From assembly GCA_021234155.1 (NCBI GenBank), contig JAJEKV010000049.1, positions 10,516,292 to 10,580,291 on the forward strand: a DNA stretch of 64,000 bases, given 5' to 3'. This document shows positions 8,496 to 48,380 of this stretch, one piece after another. This DNA comes from Isoetes taiwanensis (lineage: Eukaryota > Streptophyta > Lycopodiopsida > Isoetales > Isoetaceae). The notes beneath the pieces are model-generated. The model ran no database searches. It was not told where the DNA came from and saw nothing but the letters and a program-made list of their open reading frames with translations. How positions within the stretch are numbered: position 1 is the stretch's first letter; each line of letters starts with the position of its first letter. Made by a program: the position numbers and the translations under genes.

Positions 8496-10065
8496 TGTGA
8501 CGCTCCCTGAATATATACGACACCCGGACGTATATATACGGGGACTTTCCCCTCCCATGGCAACCACCTCGCCATGAGCAGGGCCCTCCGTCTATTCCGG
8601 CCACCCATATTATGGTGCCCGAAAGAAGGACACGAAGGGGTCATTCGGCCCACGCCTTCAATGGGACTCCTACATCGCGGAAGCATGAATACAAGGGTTA
8701 GCACACAGCATAAATCACATATAAATAACCACCACGAAGGGTGGCGCATCCATCCAAATACCAATGGCAAAGAATATGCATCTAAAACTAAGAAAACACC
8801 CAAACCTCAGGTTCTACCCCGGCTCAGACTCCAGTGAGGATCGACTGACGGTTGGGCCTCAAGAGATCAGCAGACCGAGTCTTGGCATGGCATTGGCTGG
8901 CATAGAACATCGGCTAGGGTTGTCCACTCCATCCGCCCCTCCTGTGCACACTTTGCAGATGGGTCAATTCACGCTATGGCATCGCTATAGCCTTCCGGAG
9001 ACGCAGACTCAAGGTATCACCCTTTTGAGCCTACTCCAGGGTTCATGAAGCCCCGGTCCGATGAGGCAGGTCAGGGAAGCGTCCCCTTCCAGAATCACAG
9101 TGGTTCCATGGGTGAGCTAGAGAATGCGTGCTGCATCAGCGACCCCCGCATCCGTACCCGACTTACTCACCCTAAATCTACTCAAAGTGCAAGGTGCCCC
9201 ATACGGGTCACACCACTACACCCAGGGAGTGTCAGACCCATACCCGGCCCTCTACGTGACCGGCTATCAGGCCTAGCCCACTGTAGAAGTCTCAGGAGCC
9301 TTTTATGTTCATGCAAGACCCCACCCCCACTTCACCACTGTGTTCCTTGTCTGGTGCTAAGCCAGTCCATAGCGTCTATGACCCGGTGGGCTCTTGTGCA
9401 CAGGCCGCATCTAATGGGAATAATACAGGGCTCTATCTAGGAGCATACTACAATACATGGGCTCAGAGGTCTCTACCCCCCGTAATCCCCCATCTCCGGA
9501 GTGCTAACTAAGCAAAGAACTACTAAACCATCAACCAAAGCACATACAGAGACTAGAGATAAGAATACTCACCATATCAATCAAGGGTTAGTCTAACAGG
9601 TAAACCACAGAGAAAACAGAGAGAGAACACACCACAGAGAGGCGCTATACTATAAATCAACAAAGTAACCTACTGACTAACCGTCAAATCGGTCTTGGGC
9701 TGCTCCATCTCGACTAACTGAAGGGCGCCCGGCACGCTCCTCCTCCTCCATCCCCAATTGCTCCCAATTCGAATTGGGGCACAAAAGCCCTAATTTGGGT
9801 GTCCAAAATGGAAACCCTACCTTGCCCAATCGATTTGGGTCAGGTGGCATGTCAATAATTAACTAATTTGGTATTTTAGCCCTTTTTAATATTAGGATAA
9901 GCCCTAAATTCGAATTAGGGTTTTGGGTTAGGTTTCCACCTTCATAATTTAATTATTAACATAGCTAACCTTAGCTTATGAATAATTAATGTGCCATTAA
10001 TTATTCATAGTGACGTGTCATGTATTTATACTTAAATATGCGTTATAAATATGTGGAACGTCACA
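8496..10065 (-). repeat. 3' LTR of the LARD-like element
   Basis: 1570 bp, TG...CA termini, near-identical to 16753-18311. A hairpin (ATATATACG 8511-8519, CGTATATAT 8529-8537) sits close to the end that corresponds to U5. Confidence 0.9.
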
Positions 10066-16310: not shown

Positions 16311-16738
16311 CATATTTTTGTACGGCGGACCGTATATGGGGCGCTGCGATCCTTATACGGCTTCAGTTCGTCGAGAAAAACACCTCCAAAGACAGCAGCG
16401 CCCCTTTTGATTTTTCGGTGGCCTGTTGTCTTTTCGACCTCAAGAGACGTGCCCCTTAGGGTATTTGGGAGGTGCCCGACCCATTGGAGCCGTTTTCGCC
16501 TTCATCCGAACTGCGTACAAAAAGTTATAGCCCTTCCAAACTTGGGTCCCCCAGTCACAACTTTTTCCCTCCAAAATCGCCCTAAACTTCCTAAAACTCA
16601 CAATTTATTACATCCACCTAACACAAAACTAAATCACCAAAAAGTTAAGCAGTCCAACTAGCCTAAACTCCCACTCAACTACCGAACTAACGGGTTAAAG
16701 ATTTGGTCAGTGCTATGATTCCGGTCAACCAAAATCAT

Positions 16739-16751
16739 GGCTCTGATACCA
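16739..16751 (-). other. Primer binding site, tRNA-iMet
   Basis: The minus strand reads TGGTATCAGAGCC, the complement of the plant initiator tRNA-Met 3' end, one base from the 5' LTR. The same word is used by the element at 43287. Confidence 0.85.
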
Positions 16752-16752
16752 C

Positions 16753-18311
16753 TGTGACGCTCCCTGAATATATACGACACCCGGACGTATATATACGGGG
16801 ACTTTCCCCTCCCATGGCAACCACCTCGCCATGAGCAGGGCCCTCCGTCTATTCCGGCCACCCATATTATGGTGCCTGAAAGAAGGACACGAAGGGGTCA
16901 TTCGGCCCACGCCTTCAATGGGACTCCTACGTCGCGGAAGCATGAATACAAGGGTTAGCACACAGTATAAATCACATAAAATAACCACCACGAAGGGTGG
17001 CGCATCCATCCAAATACCAACGGCAAAGAATATGCATCTAAAACTAAGAAAACACCCAAACCTCAGGTTCTACCCCTCCGGACTCCGGTGAGGATCAACC
17101 GACGGTTGGGCCTCAAGAGATCAGCAGACCGAGTCTTGGCATGGCATTGGCCGGCATAGAACATCGGCTAGGGTTGTCCACTCCATCCGCCCCTCCCCGT
17201 GCACACTTTGCGGATGGGTCAATTCGGCGCTATGGCATCGCTATAGCCTTCCTGAAACCTTGACTCAAGGTATCACCCTTTTGAGCCTACTCCAGGGTTC
17301 ATGAAGCCCCGGTCCGATGAGGCAGGTCAGGGAAGCGTCCCCTTCCAGAATCACAGTGGTTCCATCTAGAGAATGCGTGCCGCATCAGCGACCCCTGCAT
17401 CCGTACCCGACTTACTCACCCTAAATCTACTCAAAGTGCAAAGTGCCCCATACGGGTCACACCACTACACCCAGGGAGTGTCAGACCCATACCCGGCCCT
17501 CTACGTGACCGGCTATCAGGCCTAGCCCACTGTAGGAGTCTCAGGAGCCTTTTATGTTCGTGCAAGACCCCACCCCCACTTCACCACTGTGTTCCTTGTC
17601 TGGTGCTAAGCCAGTCCATAGCGTCTATGACCCGGTGGGCTCTTGTGCACAGGCCGCATCTAATGGGAATAATACAGGGCTCTATCTAGGAGCATACTAC
17701 AATACATGGGCTCAGAGGTCTCTACCCCCCGTAATCCCCCATCTCCGGAGTGCTAACTAAGCAAAGAACTACTAAACCATCAACCAAAGCACGTACAGAG
17801 ACTAGAGATAAGAATACTCACCATATCAATCAAGGGTTAGTCTAACAGGTAAACTACCACGGAAAAAGAGAGAGAACACACCACGTAGAGGCGCTTATGC
17901 TATAAATCAACAAAGTAACCCTCTTGACTAACCAAATCGGGTCTTGGGCTGCTCCATCTCGACTAACTCATAGGGTGCAGCCGCTCCTCCTCCTCCATCC
18001 CCAATTGCTCCCAATTCGAATTGGGGCACAAAAGCCCTAATTTGGGTGTCCAAAATGGAAACCCTACCTTGCCCAATCGATTTGGGTCAGGTGGCATGTC
18101 AATAATTAACTAATTTGGTATTTTAGCCCTTTTTAATATTAGGATAAGCCCTAAATTCGAATTAGGGTTTTGGGTTAGGTTTCCACCTTTATAATTTAAT
18201 TATTAACATAGCTAACCTTAGCTTATGAATAATTAATGTGCCATTAATTATTCATAGTGACGTGTCATGTATTTATACTTAAATATGCGTATAAATATGT
18301 GGAACGTCACA
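16753..18311 (-). repeat. 5' LTR of the LARD-like element
   Basis: 1559 bp, TG...CA termini, same family as 8496-10065 with a few substitutions and small indels. The terminal hairpin (16768-16776 with 16786-16794) is preserved. Confidence 0.9.
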
Positions 18312-31779: not shown

Positions 31780-32905
31780 ATTCGATTGCGAATGACGGCC
31801 GGTTGGAAGGCACTTTATGCAATGCAAAAAGCAGAGCTGTATGACTGGCCCCATCTGTCCCACTTGTTCGGGGTTTTGGTGGACCTGTTCTTTTATATGG
31901 GGTTGAAGTCTGGGGTCCGGTCATATCCCCAACCACATAGAATGAAATAGAGCTGGTACAAAAAGCCTTTTTGGCCCGGGCGCTCGGGGAGAAATCTATT
32001 GTTCCATATCAGATCCTCCTGCAGGAGACCAGTTTCTTACCTCTACAACGGGCCGCACTTGACCGCCACATTATTTACTTTCAGAAGGTGGTGGGTATAG
32101 GCAATGAACGTCTCCCCAACCTGGCTTATACTGTGGCCATGGGCCCGCAGCGCCTCAAGGCATGCTGGAAGGAGAGGCGAGCACAGTGGTTCTCCAGATG
32201 GGGCGTACAAGAGCATAGGTGCATCCAAGTTGAAACTGAAGAGGACCACCATTAGCTGTAGCAATACCTAGATGCTTGCTTTCTCAACAAGCTTTGGGAT
32301 ACTGGTGTCCTTGAACATGTTAAGACAATGCACTATAAGGTCCAGATCAGTCCCACACTTGCACATGGTCTATAGCGCTACCTCCGTGCACATTTGCTAT
32401 TGAAAAGGCATAGATTGATAGCTTCCATTCGCACAGGTGCATATATCACTTGCGAATTGAGACATGCAGATGGGCTCGGGAAGCACGTGAGGATAGACTG
32501 TGTCTGTGCTACCAACAGGGTGCTATTGAAGATGAAAGCCACACTCTACAACATTGTCCAGCATTCAGTCACATTCGCACCAACTATGCTTAGTTGATCC
32601 TGCCTACCCAGCAGCTGCATGCACTGCTGGATACAACGTCAGTGGGCTCGCTAGGATCTTATCTTTCGGACATCATGGATGCCCGCACTCAGTTATATCC
32701 TCGAATGAGGCACGGAGACACATCATGTCATTGTACAGTTTCTCAACATACCTATTACTGCACAGGTTTTTCCCTTGAAAACCCTCCAGGGCGGGGGTTT
32801 TTTAATCTTAGCAGTAATATGCCTTGCTGTATTCCTTGTTTGGATTCCATAGGCCAATTGGTCTCCGCAGATGATAAAAATCAATTCAATTCAATTCAAT
32901 TCTAC
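31780..32905 (+). mobile_element. LINE family 1, 3' half (copy b)
   Basis: The translation gives the end of a reverse transcriptase (GWKALYAMQKAELYDW) and the downstream block FLPLQRAALDRHIIYFQKVV, then PQRLKACWKERRAQWFSRWG. The 3' module lies at 32753-32819, followed by GGTCTCCGCAGATG, an A run and a tail of AATTC pentamers (32879-32903). Stops show that it is dead. This is the clearest copy for aligning the family. Confidence 0.8.
32753..32819 (+). other. Structured LINE 3' RNA module (copy b)
   Basis: The outer helix TATTACTGC (32753-32761) pairs with GCAGTAATA (32811-32819) without mismatch. It encloses GGTTTTTCCCTTGAAAACC and the G-run/T-run/TTAATC hairpin. Confidence 0.65.
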
Positions 32906-38840: not shown

Positions 38841-40224
38841 TGACGTTCCAGCATAATATACGGTACGAAATATGTATATTATACTGCCACGCCACTCGTA
38901 CATTGTCACCTTGATGACATGTACTTGGAAACCGTAAAGCTTGCACCCTAGGGGGCAACCTCTTATGTTGCACATGTCTATAAACATATGTGTATAACCC
39001 TTTTGCCACATGGCACCCCATATGTCCTTTTAGCCCTAACCCTAAAAGGTCATGTAAAGGGAACAAATGGGGAAACCCTAAACCTTTTCCATTTTCACAT
39101 TTCGGCTTCCGTGGGCCATTCCCCCATTCCGGCCAAGGCAAGCTACTAATTTGCATTGCCAGATGCCGCCAAGCTGCTTTTGCACAACAGATCCTCCAGG
39201 TTCAGCCGTCTTCGACCCAAGCAAATGCATGGACGCGATTCGAGATGCGGGAGCAAGCCATGGATCAGGTAAACAATGATTCTGTTGTGCAATGTTGACT
39301 TTTAGTCTAGTAATGAGTTGGGTTAGCATGTTAGATTAGCCTTAGCAGCCTTATAGATCTATTCTATGTGCACTCCTGTGTATTGGGTAGGGGGGTAGAG
39401 ACCCTGAAAGCTTCAGTAGTGGATGTATCTAGATAGCCTCATTAATTCCCAATTAATGAGGCCTATGGATAAGAGCCCACTAGGCTGTGGGTGGCGGAGC
39501 TAGACCGTGGATAAGGATATGTTCCATTGCAGATCGATCCCTCTGGTGTGTAAAGCCTACCAGGGAGCTTAGCGGGCTAGGGCTAATGGCTTGCCACTGC
39601 GTGTGTCAATGAGGTTCAAGTCGTAGACGGCAGTGGCCCTCTAGCCGTCGGTGATGGGCATGTATACCTCTGGAGGGAGTGATCCCCTCCTGCCTCATCA
39701 GGACTTGGGAGATGAAACCCAGGAGTAGCCCCCTTGGCTATGCACTCGGCAGGCTATGATCCAGTCCCAAGACTTATCAGCCTATTCTGCAAAGTATGCA
39801 CAAGAGGGGCAGATGAGAGAACTACCCAACAAGCCATGTTCTTATGCCAGCCCAATCCATTGACATGAATTTTGTCTGCAATGACTTCTAGAGACCCAAG
39901 CCATCAGTCCATACCCCTTGAGTCTGAGCCTTGGGTAGGATCTCCCCCATGATGATGTTGTTGACGTGTTTACACATATATGCTATGGTGAGTCGCCCTT
40001 CGAGGTGGAGCTATTTATATTTGATGTCATGTGCTCATGTTTATTTATGCTTCCGCAGCTAGGACGGTCCCGAGGGAAGACGGGATGAATGACATGTCCA
40101 TTCTTCCTCACCGATTCCTTGCCAAGGGTTTGGTGTCAGATAGACGTCCTCTGTCAACTTGATTGCCAGAGGGATGAACTCCGGCTTCTGATACGATGGG
40201 AGCATCGTAGACGAAGTAAGGGAC
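38841..40224 (+). repeat. 5' LTR of element A
   Basis: It starts TGACGTTCCAGCA and aligns with the LTR at 41703-43286 through shared blocks such as GGGGGGTAGAGACC (near 39390) and the TCTGGAGGGAGTGATCCC region (near 39670). Near its 3' end is the hairpin ATACGATG-GGAG-CATCGTAG (40191-40210). Compared with element B, about 12 bases covering the LTR end and the first part of the primer site are deleted after GGGAC. Confidence 0.7.
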
Positions 40225-40450
40225 TCAGAGCTATGATCTTGATAGACTAAGATCGAGCACTGACCAATTCCCTGATAGGACTAGCAGTAGAGCTTCAGTC
40301 TTGGGGATTATCAACCCAAGCATGAACTTCAAAAATTGAAGAAAAATTTTTCCCATCTTTTAGAACAATAAGCTAAGATAATGTTAATTAGAAAAAGTAA
40401 AAATTAAGAATATTTGAGACCTAAAAATTTTAGCCATTAGGGAGTAATCC

Positions 40451-40947: not shown

Positions 40948-41702
40948 ATGGCCCGCACCAATCAGATCGCTCGAGTGGTTATGGAGGACGGATCGATAAG
41001 CCCGCCATTTTGCCGCCGGGTATATGAAAGGCTCGAGAGCCGAGCCCTAAAATGAAGAGACTCCCAAACCCGCACTGGTCAAATCCAAACCCGGAGAACT
41101 GTGAGAGGAACGAGCAAGATCGATCAACAAGAGCACCAAATGTAATCATGATCGCTAAGAGAACCCGGAGAACCAGGAGCATGGGGACGAGAAGGACGAT
41201 AATGAGGAGGACCGCCCAACAACAGAAGAGTAGGCCCGTCGCATCAAGAAAGTCGGCAAGAAGAAGAGGGAAGCCAAAAGAAGGAAACTTGTAAAGAAGG
41301 CAAAACTCTTAAAGCAGAGGGAGGACGAGGGGAAGAATCAGCTCTCTCAAAGAAACACCAGAGGAAAACCAAGAGCACACCCAGCAAAGGGGTGAAAATA
41401 ACAGAGAGGGAGCCCGATAGGCCAGCATCGTCCTCATCAGAAACAGAGTCGGATGATGATGCTTGGAGGATTCCCTGCCAGAGGAAAGGATCGGGACCCT
41501 CCAATCCCGACAACTAAGAAGTTGCAGCACCACCTCCCTACCCGACATGGCCAAAAGCAACTGCAGATCCTAAGAAGGCCAAGCCATCATGAGAGCTATA
41601 TATACTCAAGCACGAGTGAGAGTACAAGAAGAAGCTGAGGGAGTACAAACGTGAAGATGTACGAGGCATACTCCAAGGAAGGAGGAGGGCAAACAAAGAA
41701 AG
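40948..41702 (+). pseudogene. Gag-like ORF of element A, decayed
   Basis: It starts M-A-R-T-N-Q-I-A-R, clearly related to the MARTKQTAR start of element B, and stops after 35 codons. Further on, shifted frames give a strongly basic segment (RRIKKVGKKKREAKRRKLVK) typical of gag. The element is cut at 41703 by the LTR of element B. Confidence 0.5.
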
Positions 41703-43286
41703 TGTGACGTTCCAGCACAGTATACGGTCCCAGGACGTATATTGTACTGCCTCGTCACGCGTACACGCCATCCCGACTAACGTGTACGCCGACGTGTAGC
41801 CAAGCAGGTAGCACCCTAGGGGGCAACTTGCTAGGTGTGTCCATTTATAAATGTGCACATTTACCCATGTGCACATTTATCCAAGTGTACACACTTACCC
41901 ATGTGGACACTTTATGCCACCTAGTTAATAAAGGCAAGTGGGCCACACCAATTATCCCACATGCTTAGAGGGATAATGGGAAACCCTAGCCCTAACTCTT
42001 TGTCTATTTAGGTAGAGCAAATCCTAACTTGCTATTTTCGTCCATTAGCATTCTAGGACTCTGTTTCACTTGCTCCAGGAGCCAAACCCACCTCCCAGAC
42101 TCTGTCTGAGCGATCTATCTCATCAGTTTCCCCTTCTAGCTTCATCTTCTAGCAGTTCAGCAGGATGATCGAGTTCAGAACAGGAGGAGCGAGCCAAGGA
42201 TCAGGTATTTTGTCATTTTAATAGCCTAAACCGTCTCCCAGTCATTGAATCAGTAGGTTTAGCCTATTAAATTGCCCATAGCAGCCATTTAGATCCCCAG
42301 ATACCAAGCTCTAACTAAAGAACCTAACTCTATGATATAGATTAGATCTTGCTCTTTAGTTTTCTGTGATATGTATGACGATGTATCTCTGTGAACTCAT
42401 TGTATTGGGAAGGGGGGTAGAGACCTTAAAGCCTGGTAGTTGATGCTCCTAGTTAGCCTCTTTAGTGCACTATAAATTCCCCTGTCTCTACGAGCCACAC
42501 ACTGTTCTCGTGAAGGGGCGACCGCTCATAAGGAGGTTCATGTCCCGACTCATGAGAATGATCCCTCGGTGTGTAAGGCCTCACCGGGATCCCCCTCGTG
42601 GACTAGGTCTAATGGCTTGCCATCGCTGCGTGTGGGCGAGGCATGGGCTCCACACCCGTGGAGTGATCGTCACTCTCCATTGGGTTCAAGTCGAATAAAG
42701 GGCGGTGGCCCTCTAGTCGCCTTTGAGTCGCATCTGATCTCTGGAGGGAGTGATCCCTACCTGCCCCATCGGAACTGGGGAGATGCAACCCAGGAATAGC
42801 CCCTTTGGCTATGCATCCGGCGGGCTACAGTCAGGTCCCAACGCTTTTCAACCTACTCTGCAAAGTGTGCACAGGAGGGGCGAGTGGACTACCCTTACCC
42901 ATGCTCTTATGCCAGCCAAATCCATTGCCATGAATTCTGTCTGTAATGACCTCTGGAGACCCAAGCCATCAGTCATCCCCTTGAGTCTGAGCCTTGGGTA
43001 GGATTCCCCATGTGATGTACTGATCTTTGTCTATGCAGATATGTGATGTGCCACCCTTTGAGGTGGTAGGTGATATTGATGTTGTATACTGATATGTATG
43101 TTTACGCTTCCGCAGCTAGGTCGGCCCTGAGGGAGACAGGGCAAATGACCCCTTCATTCTTGCCACTGGAACTCATCAAGGTTGCAGTGATACGTGGAGG
43201 GCCCTGTATCAGTGTGGAGCTGGTATGGGGGATGAACTCCTGTTTGTATACGGTGAGAGCACCGTATATGAGTAGGGGACGTCACA
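41703..43286 (+). repeat. 5' LTR of element B
   Basis: 1584 bp, TGTGACGTTCCAGC at the start and GGACGTCACA at the end. A 6-bp inverted pair near the start (TATACG...CGTATA) and the hairpin ATACGGTG-AGAG-CACCGTAT (43248-43267) near the end frame it. It is followed directly by a primer site. Confidence 0.8.
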
Positions 43287-43300
43287 GTGGTATCAGAGCA
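43287..43300 (+). other. Primer binding site, tRNA-iMet (element B)
   Basis: GTGGTATCAGAGCA, complementary to the initiator tRNA-Met 3' end, one base after the LTR. Confidence 0.85.
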
Positions 43301-43490
43301 ATGTTCTTGGTGACCAAGAGCAAAGCACTGGCCATGCTCCCAGTAGTACTAACTTGATAGGATCCTCAAACCTCGAAAAAGTGGGAAAATTTTTTCTCAT
43401 TTTTGTAGTATATACTAAGCTAGTAACAGTTAGTAGAACTGAAAACCAAGTAAACTAAAAAGTTCAACTAAAATTTGACCAAAAGTAGAA

Positions 43491-43772
43491 ATGTCTCACA
43501 CTGTGCGCCAGAGCACCAACCTAAAATTTAGGTCGAGCCCTGAGTGCACAATGCGAGACATTGGCCATAATCACCTCAGAACTTGATGAATTTTAATAAG
43601 GTAAGATGCTAAATCGAGTTTTTAAGTAGGAATTAGTTAGATTTGTATATTAGATCCCTAAGAATATGCCTAGAAATCACAAAATTTAGTCTAAAATGCA
43701 CAATGTCTCACACTATGCGCCAGAGGCTCGATCTAATTATTAGCTGGGGGCTCCAGCGCACAATGTGAGACA
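43491..43772 (+). other. Two leader hairpins of element B, candidate packaging signal
   Basis: Hairpin 1 (43491-43561): ATGTCTCACACTGTGCGC pairs with GTGCACAATGCGAGACAT, and the tip is the perfect palindrome CCTAAAATTTAGG. Hairpin 2 (43704-43772): TGTCTCACACTATGCGCCAG pairs with AGCGCACAATGTGAGACA. They sit 200-490 bases after the primer site and before gag, the usual place of retroelement packaging and dimerisation signals. Confidence 0.65.
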
Positions 43773-43984
43773 AGTAGCTTAGAAAATTCTGAAATAAGTA
43801 TATGTTTTAAGTCAATAGGTGCCCTGGCACATTAAAAAAGAGCAACTTAAATTTTGACCTAAAATTGCCCAAGCTATAAATAGACCTAGACCCCCGTCAT
43901 TTGTACGTTCCCTCTTTAGAAAATTGCTCCCGCTTTTTGAGGCGATTTTTGGGCGCCCGGCCTCCGATCGGCGAGCCGTAAGAC

Positions 43985-44150
43985 ATGGCGAGAACTAAAC
44001 AGACTGCTCGGGTTCCTCGAGGAGACAGAACGGCCAGCGCCCAACTTCAACAGATGCTTCGGGACCGTCTTCTTGCAAGAAGAGACCAACCTTCATTGAG
44101 CGATGGGACATTCTCAGAGGAGCACCAAGGGGAAGGATCCCAGCAGGGAG
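43985..44150 (+). pseudogene. Gag-like ORF with histone H3 tail mimic, truncated
   Basis: It opens with an ATG about 685 bases after the primer site and reads MARTKQTARVPRGDRTASAQ, then LQQMLRDRLLARRDQPSLSD. Residues 2-9 equal residues 1-8 of mature histone H3, including the K4 position; Met before Ala is normally removed, which would expose the same free N-terminus. After this the sequence is not histone-like, so this is not an H3 gene. Element A has the same start with K replaced by N. No Gag domain is visible because the ORF is cut near 44150, where minus-strand copia sequence begins. Position after LTR, primer site and leader supports gag. Confidence 0.55.
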
Positions 44151-44154
44151 CACA

Positions 44155-45000
44155 AGAATTGTCTAAGCCAAAAAGATTCCCCACTCTTTTGCCAAAAAAC
44201 TTGATTTCATTATTTAGAAGGATAGTACATTGTAATCTGTTGAATACAACAGTATATCCCATATCAACCAATTGACTAACAGAAATTAAATTTCTAACTA
44301 ATGATGGCACACATAGCACATCCTTTAACACTACTGCATTCCTTTGTAAATCAAATAACTCTAGAACACCAGCACACTGAACCTTTTGCATCTCCCCATT
44401 TCCAAGCTTGACATATCCTGTCCTGCTTTGGTTTTCTTCGTTAAACTGCCATACCCAAGGTCACGGGTTCAACGCCTCGTTGTGAAAGTGGCCATGCAAT
44501 GTAAAGTTGGTGGGGGAAGGACCCACTTCAGCAATGTAAAGTGGTGGGGGCAGGACCCATCTGGGTGTGTTGTAAAGTGTCACATGTCCGATAGGACGCT
44601 GCCTTGTGGCGTGACGTTAAAATCTCTTCTTCTTCTTCTTCTTCTTCTTTAAGCATTTTGCTTGAGCTTGTCACTGTTTTTTCTGTTCCACTATCTAGGA
44701 TTAACATATCATTCTCCATGTCAGCTTTTTTATTTTCAGAAATAGCAGAAATTGTATTGTGACTTACCTCAGCTTCCTCGTTTTCTTCACTTATGCCTTC
44801 CTCACTTTCTTGAGTAAAATTTACAGCAGCATTTGTTTTGGATTTCCCTTTGTATGGACTATTAGTTCTGCTGGATTTTCCTCTCCCTGTCTTGCTACTA
44901 GAGCATCTGTTTGCAAAGTGGCCTTTTCCACCACAATTATAGACATTCTCAGAATCAACATTAGAGTTAGGTAATATTTCTTTGATACTTATCTCCTCTT
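44155..45000 (-). pseudogene. Second copia zinc knuckle and protease start, SINE-interrupted
   Basis: Directly after the integrase C-terminus the same frame (45502-44528) continues into NCGGKGHFANRC (a CCHC knuckle) and DMLILDSGTEKTVTSS (protease active site D-S-G). After the SINE the frame resumes as CAGVLELFDLQ and LKDVLCVPSLVRNLISV, the pre-integrase region. It parallels 46950-46000, so two related elements have been joined with loss of the pol genes between them. Confidence 0.6.
44440..44652 (+). mobile_element. SINE with CTT tail inside copia
   Basis: A B-box-like GGTCACGGGTTCAACGCC is followed by an internal duplication (GCAATGTAAAG...GGTGGGGG twice) and a CTT trinucleotide tail (44624-44650). 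It splits the copia protease region. No clear A box or target duplication was found. Confidence 0.55.
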
Positions 45001-45089
45001 CATCATCTGTATCAATCATCATTGCAGGCTTGTCTAGCTCCTTTTCAAATTGTACCCTTTTATTATTCTTGCATTCAGCTATATCTTCA

Positions 45090-45806
45090 TGGCTGTTAAT
45101 TCTTGGCAGTACCTTGTAAAATTGCTCCTCATCAAATAACACATCCCTACTTATTATAATTCTTCTTTTACTTGGATCATACAATCTATAAGCTTTGGAT
45201 TGCGGATCATACCCTACCATGTAAGTGATGTAAGCCCTGTCATCAAGCTTTTTTCTGAGTTCTTCTAGCACACGGGCATATGCTAAGCAGCCAAAGGCTT
45301 TCAGCCTGGTATAGTCAGGAGTCTTTGAACACCATAGTGTCAAGGGAATCTCTCCCTTGATGCTTATAGAACGCAATAAGTTCTGCACAAATATTGCTGT
45401 CTTGACAACCTCTTCCCAGAGAAAGTTTGGCAATCCTGAATACTTGAGCATGCTCCTAATTGCAATTAAGTATAGTTCTATTCCTTTTCTCAGCAATTCC
45501 ATTTTGTTGGGGGGAGAATCTGCATGTCAAGTGCCTCTTGATGCCAAGTTTATTACAATAGTACTTAAATTCATTTGACAAGAATTCATCTCCCATATCT
45601 GTGCGTAAGCATCTAACTTTTCTTCCAGTTTCCAACTGTACTTCATTTACAAACTGCTTAAATGCTTGAAGAGCCAGGTCCTTGGTACTTAGACAATAAA
45701 CTTTTGCCATCCTGTTATAATCATCTACAAAAGTTATAAAATAGCTTTTCCCTGAGAGACTGGTCACATTTAATGGTCCACATAAGTCAGAGTGAATTAA
45801 ATCCAA
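45090..45806 (-). pseudogene. Copia integrase
   Basis: The frame 45806-45456 reads MDLIHSDLCGPLNVTSLSGK, YFITFVDDYNR, LRTDMGDEFLS and SPQQNGIAEKRNRTIL: the D-D-E integrase core, with D of HSD, D of RTD and the glutamate of NGIAE. The frame 45502 onwards continues with LPNFLWEEVVKTA, KAFGCLAYARV and YDPSKRRIIISRDVLFDE. A frameshift lies near 45480. This is the strand-transfer enzyme. Confidence 0.8.
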
Positions 45807-45809
45807 TAC

Positions 45810-46376
45810 TCATTTTGCCCTTTTTAAGGATTTCTTGAAAGGCAGCCTGGTATGCTTGCCTAGAATACATCCTGCACATTTAAACTTTTCATCTTTAATT
45901 TCAGATGCTTCAATCAGGCCCCTTTTAATTAAGAGCTCTATTGTTTTGGAGTTCACATGACGCATTCTTTCTGGCCATAATTTAATATCTGAACAAGTCA
46001 CCAGATTGATACTTTGAGCATAATGATCAGGATTCAATCCAAATAAATTTCCAACTCTCTTGCCAACAAACTTCAATTTATTATCATGAAACACCTTACA
46101 TTGTAACCTTTTAAATAGAACGTTGTATCCAAGATCTACTAATTGGCATACAGAAATTAAATTTCTAACTAGTCCTGGTACACAGAGTACTTCTCCTAAT
46201 TTGACAACCTTTCCTTCTAAATCAAATAGTTCTCCCGGTGTCTTTAATTTCTTGCGATTCATCATTTCCCAACTGCACATGTCCTCCTTTGACTTGAAGT
46301 GTGTGGAAGATGTTATTGTCCTCTCAGCTCCTGAATCTATAATCATCATATCATGGTTATTTACATCATTCAACAA
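45810..46376 (-). pseudogene. Copia protease and pre-integrase region
   Basis: It starts MLNDVNNHDMMIIDSGAERT: D-S-G is the aspartic protease site. It then shows CVPGLVRNLISVCQLVDLGY and a zinc-binding pre-integrase segment (H...H...CAGCILGKHTRLPF) feeding into the integrase. Confidence 0.75.
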
Positions 46377-46540
46377 GTGACACAGTTCAGGGTACTTTAC
46401 CTCATCATCTTCATTTTGTTCATCTTCATCTCCTCGAGTCTCCTGAGTTAGATTCAGAGATGGATTAGTTTTAGCTGTTCCTCTTCCTCTCGCAGCAGAT
46501 CCCCCTCGATTTCCCCTGCCTCTGCCTCTTCCTTTGTAGT

Positions 46541-47422
46541 TCAGTCCCCTAGGGCTTGAACAATTTGAAGCAATGTACCTTTTCCCTCACAATTGAAACA
46601 AACTGTGTGTTTTCTTATTTTAGGACAGTCAGCCTTCAAATGTCCATAATTATTGCAATTATAACATGGTCCAATCCTTTCCTTATCACTATTATTACTA
46701 TTTTTCTTTCCTTTATATTTTCCAGCATAAAGGACTTCAGTGGTCTGCTCATCATCTTCCTGTCCTATTTGCTTTTTCTCAAATTCTGTCCTTATCATTT
46801 GAATAGCATGCTCCTTTGATTTAGCAACATTTCTCAACAATGTAGCAAGGCAAGAATTATGTGAGACTGCTCTAGAGATAGCCAATAGCTGATATTGCTC
46901 ATTTAAAATAACACCTGCCCCTTCTAAGTCAGCTATTATGGAGTCAAATTTTCTCAAGAAATTCAGTTATGTTCTCCCTGTCATGCAACTTCAACTTTCT
47001 TAATTGCTTTTCTAAAACATCTATTTGGAAGTTTTAGCTTCATAATTTTTGATCATGTATAGCCACATCAATTTCAACTTAATCACAGGACCAACCTTGC
47101 AGCAAATGATTGCTTGTGCCTCCATGATTTTAAGTTGCTCATCCACTTCTGTACTTGTTGCAGATATTGCTTGTGCTGTATTGTTGCTCCCTTCAGCAAT
47201 TCCTACACCTTCACCAGTTGTTGAGCTTTCTCCATTTGAACTGGAGCTAGTTCCCCCTGTACTTGATGTCCCTAAGACAACATTAGTACCATAACGTCTA
47301 TTTGTACTTGGCTCAATCAAGTACCACAGATTTTCAAACTCCAGAACTTCTTTAATACTTTGTTTCCAGATTTGAAAACCACTCTCACCTTTAAATACTT
47401 CAATTAAGTAGATTAGCACCAA
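46541..47422 (-). pseudogene. Copia gag with zinc knuckles
   Basis: The upstream frame (47422-47021) reads FQIWKQSIKEVLEFENLWYL, a typical copia gag start. The next (46957-46541) has FDSIIADLEGAGVIL, CYNCNNYGHLKADCP (CCHC knuckle) and CFNCEGKG. A frameshift lies near 46960-47020. Confidence 0.7.

Positions 47423-47689: not shown

Positions 47690-48380
<691 letters not shown>

Follow-up and report, generated by a model that had tools for sequence, protein, structure and literature searches.

An open reading frame (ORF) in Isoetes taiwanensis DNA that begins with an exact histone H3 tail is, almost certainly, the first gene of a long terminal repeat (LTR) retrotransposon and encodes an H3-like histone. 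It lies in a stretch of 64,000 nucleotides (assembly GCA_021234155.1, contig JAJEKV010000049.1, positions 10,516,292 to 10,580,291 of the forward strand), hereafter the window. Positions 43985-44011 of the window read ATGGCGAGAACTAAACAGACTGCTCGG on the forward strand, which translates into MARTKQTAR, a start codon followed by the H3 tail tip ARTKQTAR. The next residues are VPRGDRTASAQ. The initial annotation had reported this exact tail, an LTR end, a primer site and a leader upstream of it, and an older related start, MARTNQIAR, at 40948, all of which the window letters bear out. These two positions were the only ATG starts in the whole window, on both strands, that matched at least six of the nine MARTKQTAR residues. 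Its statement that the residues after the tail are not H3 holds locally, but relatives of the ORF have an H3 histone fold further along.

The tail ORF is a histone gene and not gag

Relatives were collected as loci (L numbers) from one genome, the window's own (1.658 Gb). When host H3 (L015) was used as the tblastn query, H3-fold pieces were found mostly about 0.9-1.3 kb after the tail, and those in the better-preserved copies were 44-58% identical to host H3. The L039 ORF, open over its whole 388 codons, matched the Pfam Histone family (PF00125) with an E value of 2.4e-21, and its best PDB sequence match was H3.3 (2e-19), the nearest solved structures being H3.3 and H3. Seven other copies matched PF00125 with E values of 1.5e-23 to 1.6e-28, and decayed copies with 1.2e-13 (L006) and 1.9e-5 (L024). 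Nine of the ten proteins exceeded the curated Pfam cut-off of 26.4 bits, eight of them at 76.7-99.9 and L006 at 51.8; the decayed L024 stood just under it at 25.3 bits.

The ORF had been taken for gag, and a captured histone gene had been discounted. Neither interpretation survived. Pfam found no gag or capsid domain in the tail ORF of L009 (which lacks its fold), and the open L039 ORF matched Histone only. Retrotrans_gag (PF03732, E 1.5e-7) was located in a separate L009 ORF about 3.7 kb downstream of the tail ORF. With Histone in the tail ORF and gag in a separate one, the Pfam results reject the gag label for the MARTKQTAR ORF. It is a separate gene, upstream of a second ORF (ORF2) and gag, that joins the tail tip to an H3 fold. 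Its product consists of H3 residues 1-8, exact and usually followed by K9 as well (tip peptide ARTKQTARKPRPGE), a charged linker of about 280-350 residues in the best-kept copies, a basic stretch adjoining the fold on the N-terminal side, and a divergent H3 fold. Predicted structure models were weak.

The H3 tail tip recurs throughout the genome

A degenerate 26-base pattern for MARTKQTAR had 1,888 exact matches in the genome (904 + 984), host H3 genes included. The same pattern read backwards, which served as a control, had none (0 + 0). Among the 100 matches listed, which include at least the host H3 genes L015 and L020, the peptide was written in 52 different spellings; every Ala, Thr, Lys and Gln codon was used, along with all six Arg codons at Arg 2. 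The variety of spellings indicates that constraint acts on the peptide and not on the DNA.

A further set comprises 45 distinct loci picked by their tails. They are not a random sample, since the first eight listed were taken and the others were chosen among the 100 listed for varied spelling and to cover two subfamilies. Within 1.45 kb, 37 of the 45 had an H3-fold match with an E value no higher than 1e-4, and reversed control sequences of the 45 gave no H3-fold match. The 37 loci comprise the two host H3 genes and 35 loci of element type. Host H3 genes, being only 2 of the 45 tail-picked loci, were rejected as the main source of the 1,888 matches. The eight loci lacking an H3-fold match were L017, L030, L019 (twice), L022, L037, L042 and L067. 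As judged by eye, L019 (twice), L022, L037 and L042 are decayed or interrupted, while L017 and L030 represent another element type and L067 is unrelated.

L067 (C86:3314-4464, minus strand) starts with MARTKQTASVKVEIFG, has no histone fold in the fetched piece, and is a chance or unrelated match. L017 (1657-2661) and L030 (C8:79591-81041, minus strand) belong to a different repeat without a histone fold, whose ORF starts with MARTKQTARVPG, then S or T, then GP. The two agree at 14 of the first 15 codons at the residue level; beyond the start, 177 aligned residues are 47-49% alike, and a later stretch of 49 residues reaches 71%. The L017 ORF had no notable match in Pfam, NCBIfam or PDB. This repeat may be an independent use of the H3 tip. 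A further ORF, L017:5033-5920, carries the motif CSVLDFFSGGSFSRAAMCEGYKATAFESD and by eye resembles an S-adenosylmethionine-dependent methyltransferase; it had no significant Pfam match.

Strong selection conserves the tail tip and the fold

Copies were also picked by the fold. The 88-residue fold of L025 was searched in the genome, and the 150 matches scored, of 8,986 first-look candidates, all had E values of 4.9e-45 or better and were 88-100% identical. Every scored match whose frame stayed open for 450 codons or more was taken, whatever its start, which gave 14 copies. Ten of the 14 start exactly with MARTKQTAR, one of which (L051) has a broken frame behind the start. The other starts carry Q5E (L047), A7T (L049) or a deletion (L048), and L052 has no alignable start. 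The ratio of nonsynonymous to synonymous change (pN/pS), summed over pairs, was calculated for the 10 copies open from the ATG through the fold (420-467 codons; nine exact tails and L047), a sample of subfamilies near L025 in which the open-frame criterion under-represents decayed copies.

In these copies pN/pS was lowest at residues 2-9 (0.022), followed by the fold (0.12), residue 10 (0.17), the basic part (0.27), the linker (0.39) and residues 11-40 (0.51). Synonymous change in the tail (pS 0.68) was as high as elsewhere in the gene. The only eight-codon segments as constrained as the tail started at 410-414 and 423, all in the fold. Among nine tail-picked copies, pairs of element folds had nonsynonymous divergence (dN) of 0.01-0.26 and synonymous divergence (dS) from 0.18 to saturation; between subfamilies the fold was at or near synonymous saturation with dN of at most 0.26. 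Purifying selection is strong on both the tail tip and the fold and much weaker on the linker. The view of the tail as a shared family feature is supported by the exact starts and their constraint, and the first codons are, as had been proposed for a check, more constrained than the regions that follow. Selection on tip and fold, with far less on the tether between them, suggests that the two act together, as a true H3 end on a histone-like anchor.

Element architecture and ORF2

Pieced together from several copies (L009/L045, L010 and L013/L043), the element reads LTR, primer site, a leader with a TATA-like box and the histone gene, another leader with a TATA-like box and ORF2, and then gag, protease, reverse transcriptase (RT), RNase H, integrase and chromodomain. 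In L009 the tail ORF is followed by the second ORF, the gag ORF and a retroviral protease (Pfam); Pfam also located RT in L010, and RNase H and integrase in L013. L045 and L043 are the 3' continuations of L009 and L013, and on these two of the four copies with 3' parts fetched the Pfam test detected a chromodomain at the end of pol, with E values of 1.6e-10 (L045) and 1.5e-8 (L043). The two other 3' continuations, read by eye only, showed a decayed trace (L044) or none (L046). Two of the three aromatic-cage positions in the element chromodomain are non-aromatic by eye. Judged by gene order and chromodomain, the elements are a Ty3/gypsy clan of chromovirus type.

In L027 the 5' LTR ends directly before TGGTATCAGAGC, and a leader of about 690 nt with two imperfect inverted-repeat blocks and a TATA box leads to the histone gene. 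Inverted-repeat blocks of the same kind and a second TATA box lie between the end of the histone gene and ORF2. Of 13 long loci, 12 have a TATA-like box at a distance of 97-111 nt upstream of the histone ATG. The ORF2 start motif was located in eight of the 13, and seven of these eight have a TATA-like box about 110-149 nt before ORF2. The spacing varies little, even among families with leaders that appear dissimilar by eye. These boxes suggest internal promoters of the histone gene and ORF2, consensus matches being no proof. LTR-type pairs were 97.7% (L027) and 93.0% (L009/L045) identical, from which activity appears to have lasted until fairly recently.

Duplicated imperfect palindromes, GTCTCACGGTATGCGC...GCGCACACCGTGAGAC, precede both accessory genes in L027, and the window has such blocks before the histone gene; they are possibly a shared regulatory element. 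ORF2 itself is a conserved second gene of the elements that bear the tail (for example L016:5515-6702 and L023:5046-6335, both minus strand), with an acidic stretch and a length of about 500 residues as estimated from broken copies. ORF2 pieces of L023 and L009 had no Pfam match, and a structure search, based on a poor model, returned only insignificant Foldseek matches, many of them to winged-helix regulators. The function of ORF2 is probably linked to the adjoining histone gene, and its position there makes it a candidate histone chaperone or DNA binder worth testing.

The window copy

All features of the interrupted element described here lie on the forward strand. Its 5' LTR, at 41703-43287, was delimited by aligning pieces of L027 and L025 to the window with blastn (88-91%); the start is approximate and marks the first position similar to the 3' LTR side of L027. 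Directly after the LTR end, an exact primer-binding site TGGTATCAGAGC occupies 43288-43299 and is presumably of the tRNA-iMet type; in eight of 14 relatives scanned this site lies 579-971 nt before the ATG. The non-LTR leader, or putative promoter module of the histone gene (43300-43984), was delimited by alignment with the leaders of L013, L025, L009, L027 and L011, which it matches over most of its length at 70-77%. Within it the window letters show two imperfect inverted-repeat blocks, at 43493-43559 (GTCTCAC...GCGAGAC) and 43705-43771 (GTCTCAC...GTGAGAC), and the TATA box TATAAATAG, a consensus match, is at 43875-43883, 110 nt upstream of the ATG.

The histone gene of the window is truncated. 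It comprises the tail tip and the start of the linker (43985-44157), and its alignment to the L027 and L025 ORFs stops at 44152 and 44157. It belongs, as L027 does, to the RVPRGD subfamily and is cut after about 58 codons by an antisense Copia-like insertion; the rest of the linker and the H3 fold are missing, and a search for an H3 fold in the window found none. The antisense Copia-like fragments, so labelled from motifs read by eye, extend over 44158-47422 on the minus strand with an approximate outer limit, and the minus-strand ORFs at 44047-44391 and others belong to this insertion region. The older decayed copy starts at 40948-40974 (forward strand), with LTR- or leader-like similarity at 39365-40274. 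That piece is one of several in the window similar to element loci, the others being 8814-8957, 16704-17214, 31924-32864 and 48116-48347; they are part LTR or leader, and part on the minus strand.

Subfamilies, a second kind and the ancestry of the fold

The residue after the tail is K in most copies read, V in the RVPRGD group and I in the IHPVV group. The fold of the ERPTLSMA group is nearer canonical H3 (L062, 61% over residues 55-134). Besides these tail-bearing copies, hereafter kind 1, a second kind was found with a rice CENH3 fold as the query, for which 150 of 7,896 first-look candidates were scored. Beyond host H3 genes, about 40 of the 150 scored rows, as counted by eye, had open frames of 420-567 codons. 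Seven copies were read, L068 to L074 (C974:15273700, C1034:23104490, C1050:4840870, C1038:3198250, C919:9624560, C996:11418200 and C1052:1794600). In six of them (L068-L073) a new N-terminal domain, some 250 residues long (MAITK.AP.. or M.RFKLTVDLK..), is joined by a basic linker to a near-canonical H3 fold, which in L069 matched Pfam with an E value of 3.2e-41; L074 retains the fold but no more than a trace of this domain. No ARTKQTAR start was present in the fetched pieces of L068-L073. The fold of kind 2 is more constrained than the rest of the protein (five copies counted). Downstream of the H3 gene in L069/L075, the one kind-2 copy read that far, lies an ORF2 relative (hhalign probability 97.1, E 4.9e-11, 200 columns), which indicates that the pair of H3 gene and ORF2 occurs in both kinds. 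Copy number, dispersal and the ORF2 relative argue for the element nature of kind 2.

Trees were built with reference CENH3 rather than host CENH3. With all kinds included, kind 2 formed one clade (99/89) and kind 1 fell into two parts owing to the long branch of L062; without L062 and kind 2, the eight kind-1 folds formed one clade (100/99). The trees support neither H3 nor CENH3 ancestry over the other, nor one capture versus two. The CENH3 loop-1 insertion was absent from the eight kind-1 folds aligned and from L062, when compared with the CENH3 reference. This absence, together with the H3-like ERPTLSMA family, weakens a CENH3 origin of the fold.

Proposed function and alternative explanations

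Identity to H3 over 17 kind-1 copies was 0.89 at the H3-H3' four-helix bundle, 0.69 in the H3-H4 core and 0.54 at DNA contacts, by the residue lists that we assume for these groups, and 0.55 over the whole fold. Many changes in the H3-H4 core are conservative. Changes relative to H3 that are fixed in at least 90% of the 17 copies include R63P, F84V, G102Q and L109A. The pattern fits a protein that would still make H3-H4 tetramers, perhaps holding DNA differently. An initiator methionine before alanine is normally removed; its removal would leave the free A1-R2-T3-K4 end that readers of the H3 N-terminus need. We propose a mechanism in which the element histone would be made from its own transcript, lose its first methionine, bind host H4 as well as a second copy of itself or host H3, and enter nucleosomes or pre-deposition complexes. 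There it would present a genuine H3 N-terminus on a long tether, and might in this way attract or divert the host proteins that read and write H3 K4, K9 and the free N-terminus, whether at element chromatin or at integration targets. The element would gain by being expressed, or by integrating, in spite of silencing. Such incorporation into nucleosomes or H3-H4 complexes, with engagement or diversion of H3-tail readers, is the most likely mechanism on the sequence evidence, at roughly even odds; to the whole explanation, an H3 gene in a chromovirus-type clan plus a mechanism at the nucleosome level, we assign a probability of about 0.6. A further version, which we offer tentatively, is a private chromatin kit. 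The elements would carry their own H3 gene and ORF2 under internal promoters, the element H3 would mark nucleosomes at copies or targets, and the chromodomain integrase or hijacked host H3-tail readers would act on them to give a parasite-specific chromatin state. Two kit architectures, the H3 tip on a long tether and the new N-terminal domain with a near-canonical H3, would then have radiated widely.

The protein might instead stay out of nucleosomes as a soluble decoy that titrates H3 chaperones, or the writers and readers of H3 K4 and K9, and so weakens silencing. DNA-contact residues that have diverged beside a perfect tail tip, and a long tether of low constraint, would suit a decoy. It would not need the residues of the H3-H3' four-helix bundle, however, which tetramers require and which are the best kept of the three groups, and we judge this explanation unlikely. 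Packaging, in which the histone would condense element RNA or complementary DNA within the particle or pre-integration complex, has a precedent in virus-encoded histones that pack genomes, and the gene is encoded by the element alongside gag with a basic stretch before the fold; since packaging accounts neither for the tail tip as the most constrained N-terminal stretch nor for a separate promoter-like module, we regard it as improbable. Centromeric chromatin could be targeted by the element, or by its chromodomain integrase, through a fold that imitates or derives from CENH3. The element does have a chromodomain, and LLIPxAPFxRLVREV and VTLMRKDM resemble plant CENH3, but besides lacking the loop-1 insertion, the elements include the ERPTLSMA family, which keeps the H3-like LLIRKAPF, NLCAIHAKRV and MPKD. 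CENH3-like residues elsewhere thus look convergent, and centromeric targeting has little to recommend it.

The explanations that deny the tail a role in the element fare worst. The tail might be left over from passively retro-copied host H3 or pseudogenes, in favour of which many copies are decayed and the fold derives from H3. Against this, synonymous change is high and nonsynonymous change very low in tail and fold, which contradicts passive capture for the lineages in the pN/pS set; linkers diverge while tail and fold stay, and the place of the gene, between the primer site and ORF2, is fixed. We find passive capture hardly credible. A constraint on the DNA or RNA, such as an initiation context or packaging signal keeping the first codons, agrees with the location of the motif at the start codon. 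It is contradicted both by the 52 spellings among the matches listed, host H3 included, and by a tail pS as high as elsewhere in the gene, and its probability is practically negligible.

Implications

A large retrotransposon clan with its own H3-like gene and a selected H3 tip suggests that these parasites supply some of their own chromatin or imitate it. If so, LTR retrotransposons encode part of the host chromatin and do not merely meet it, and it becomes possible to test how elements thrive in the face of H3-based silencing, a question of long standing. The elements would also supply tools: a natural H3 variant with stronger constraint on the tip than on the linker, a large series of diverged versions, and a partner in ORF2. 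Annotation calls for caution as well, since an H3-like ORF or H3-tail peptide in a genome of this sort may not belong to a host histone, a point that matters for work with H3 antibodies and mass spectrometry.

Comparison with known systems

The tail tip of the element histone is identical to that of host H3 (L015, L020). The host fold is 55% identical on average to that of kind 1 (17 copies) and 78% to that of kind 2 (L069, 114 query residues), and the stretch between residue 9 and the fold of host H3 is replaced in the element by the long linker. Other parasites encode histones or H3-like tails, as in giant-virus histones, polydnavirus H4 and the influenza NS1 tail; here an LTR retrotransposon unites the exact H3 N-terminus and an H3 fold in one protein. 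In searches of open-licence full texts we recognised no earlier description of an LTR retrotransposon with a histone gene, which is weak evidence of novelty.

Plant chromoviruses, as described in PMC6317226, have the same order of gag, protease, RT, RNase H and integrase, with an integrase tail and then a Pfam chromodomain, and those of seed plants likewise have two of three aromatic-cage positions non-aromatic. Unlike them, the present elements carry a histone H3 gene and ORF2 before gag. Additional ORFs are known in plant LTR retrotransposons (PMC12786077). Retrosat2, RIRE3 and RIRE8 have an extra, fast-evolving ORF0 in the same position upstream of gag-pol, and LTR ends of similar type by eye, a likeness drawn from description and not from sequence (PMC3485330). 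The function of ORF0 is called unclear there, a metabolic enzyme is suggested from models, and the word "histone" is absent from that text. Orchid Gypsy elements have an ORF for an N6-methyladenosine (m6A) demethylase (2-ODD), likewise a host gene captured as an accessory ORF by Ty3/gypsy, which encodes an enzyme, an RNA demethylase, unlike the histone here (PMC9289625). The section of that paper on a screen of 121 angiosperm genomes, in which not all 15 domains are named, has no histone among those it discusses. Capture of accessory genes by chromovirus-type elements is thus already known, and a core histone as the cargo is far from the known examples.
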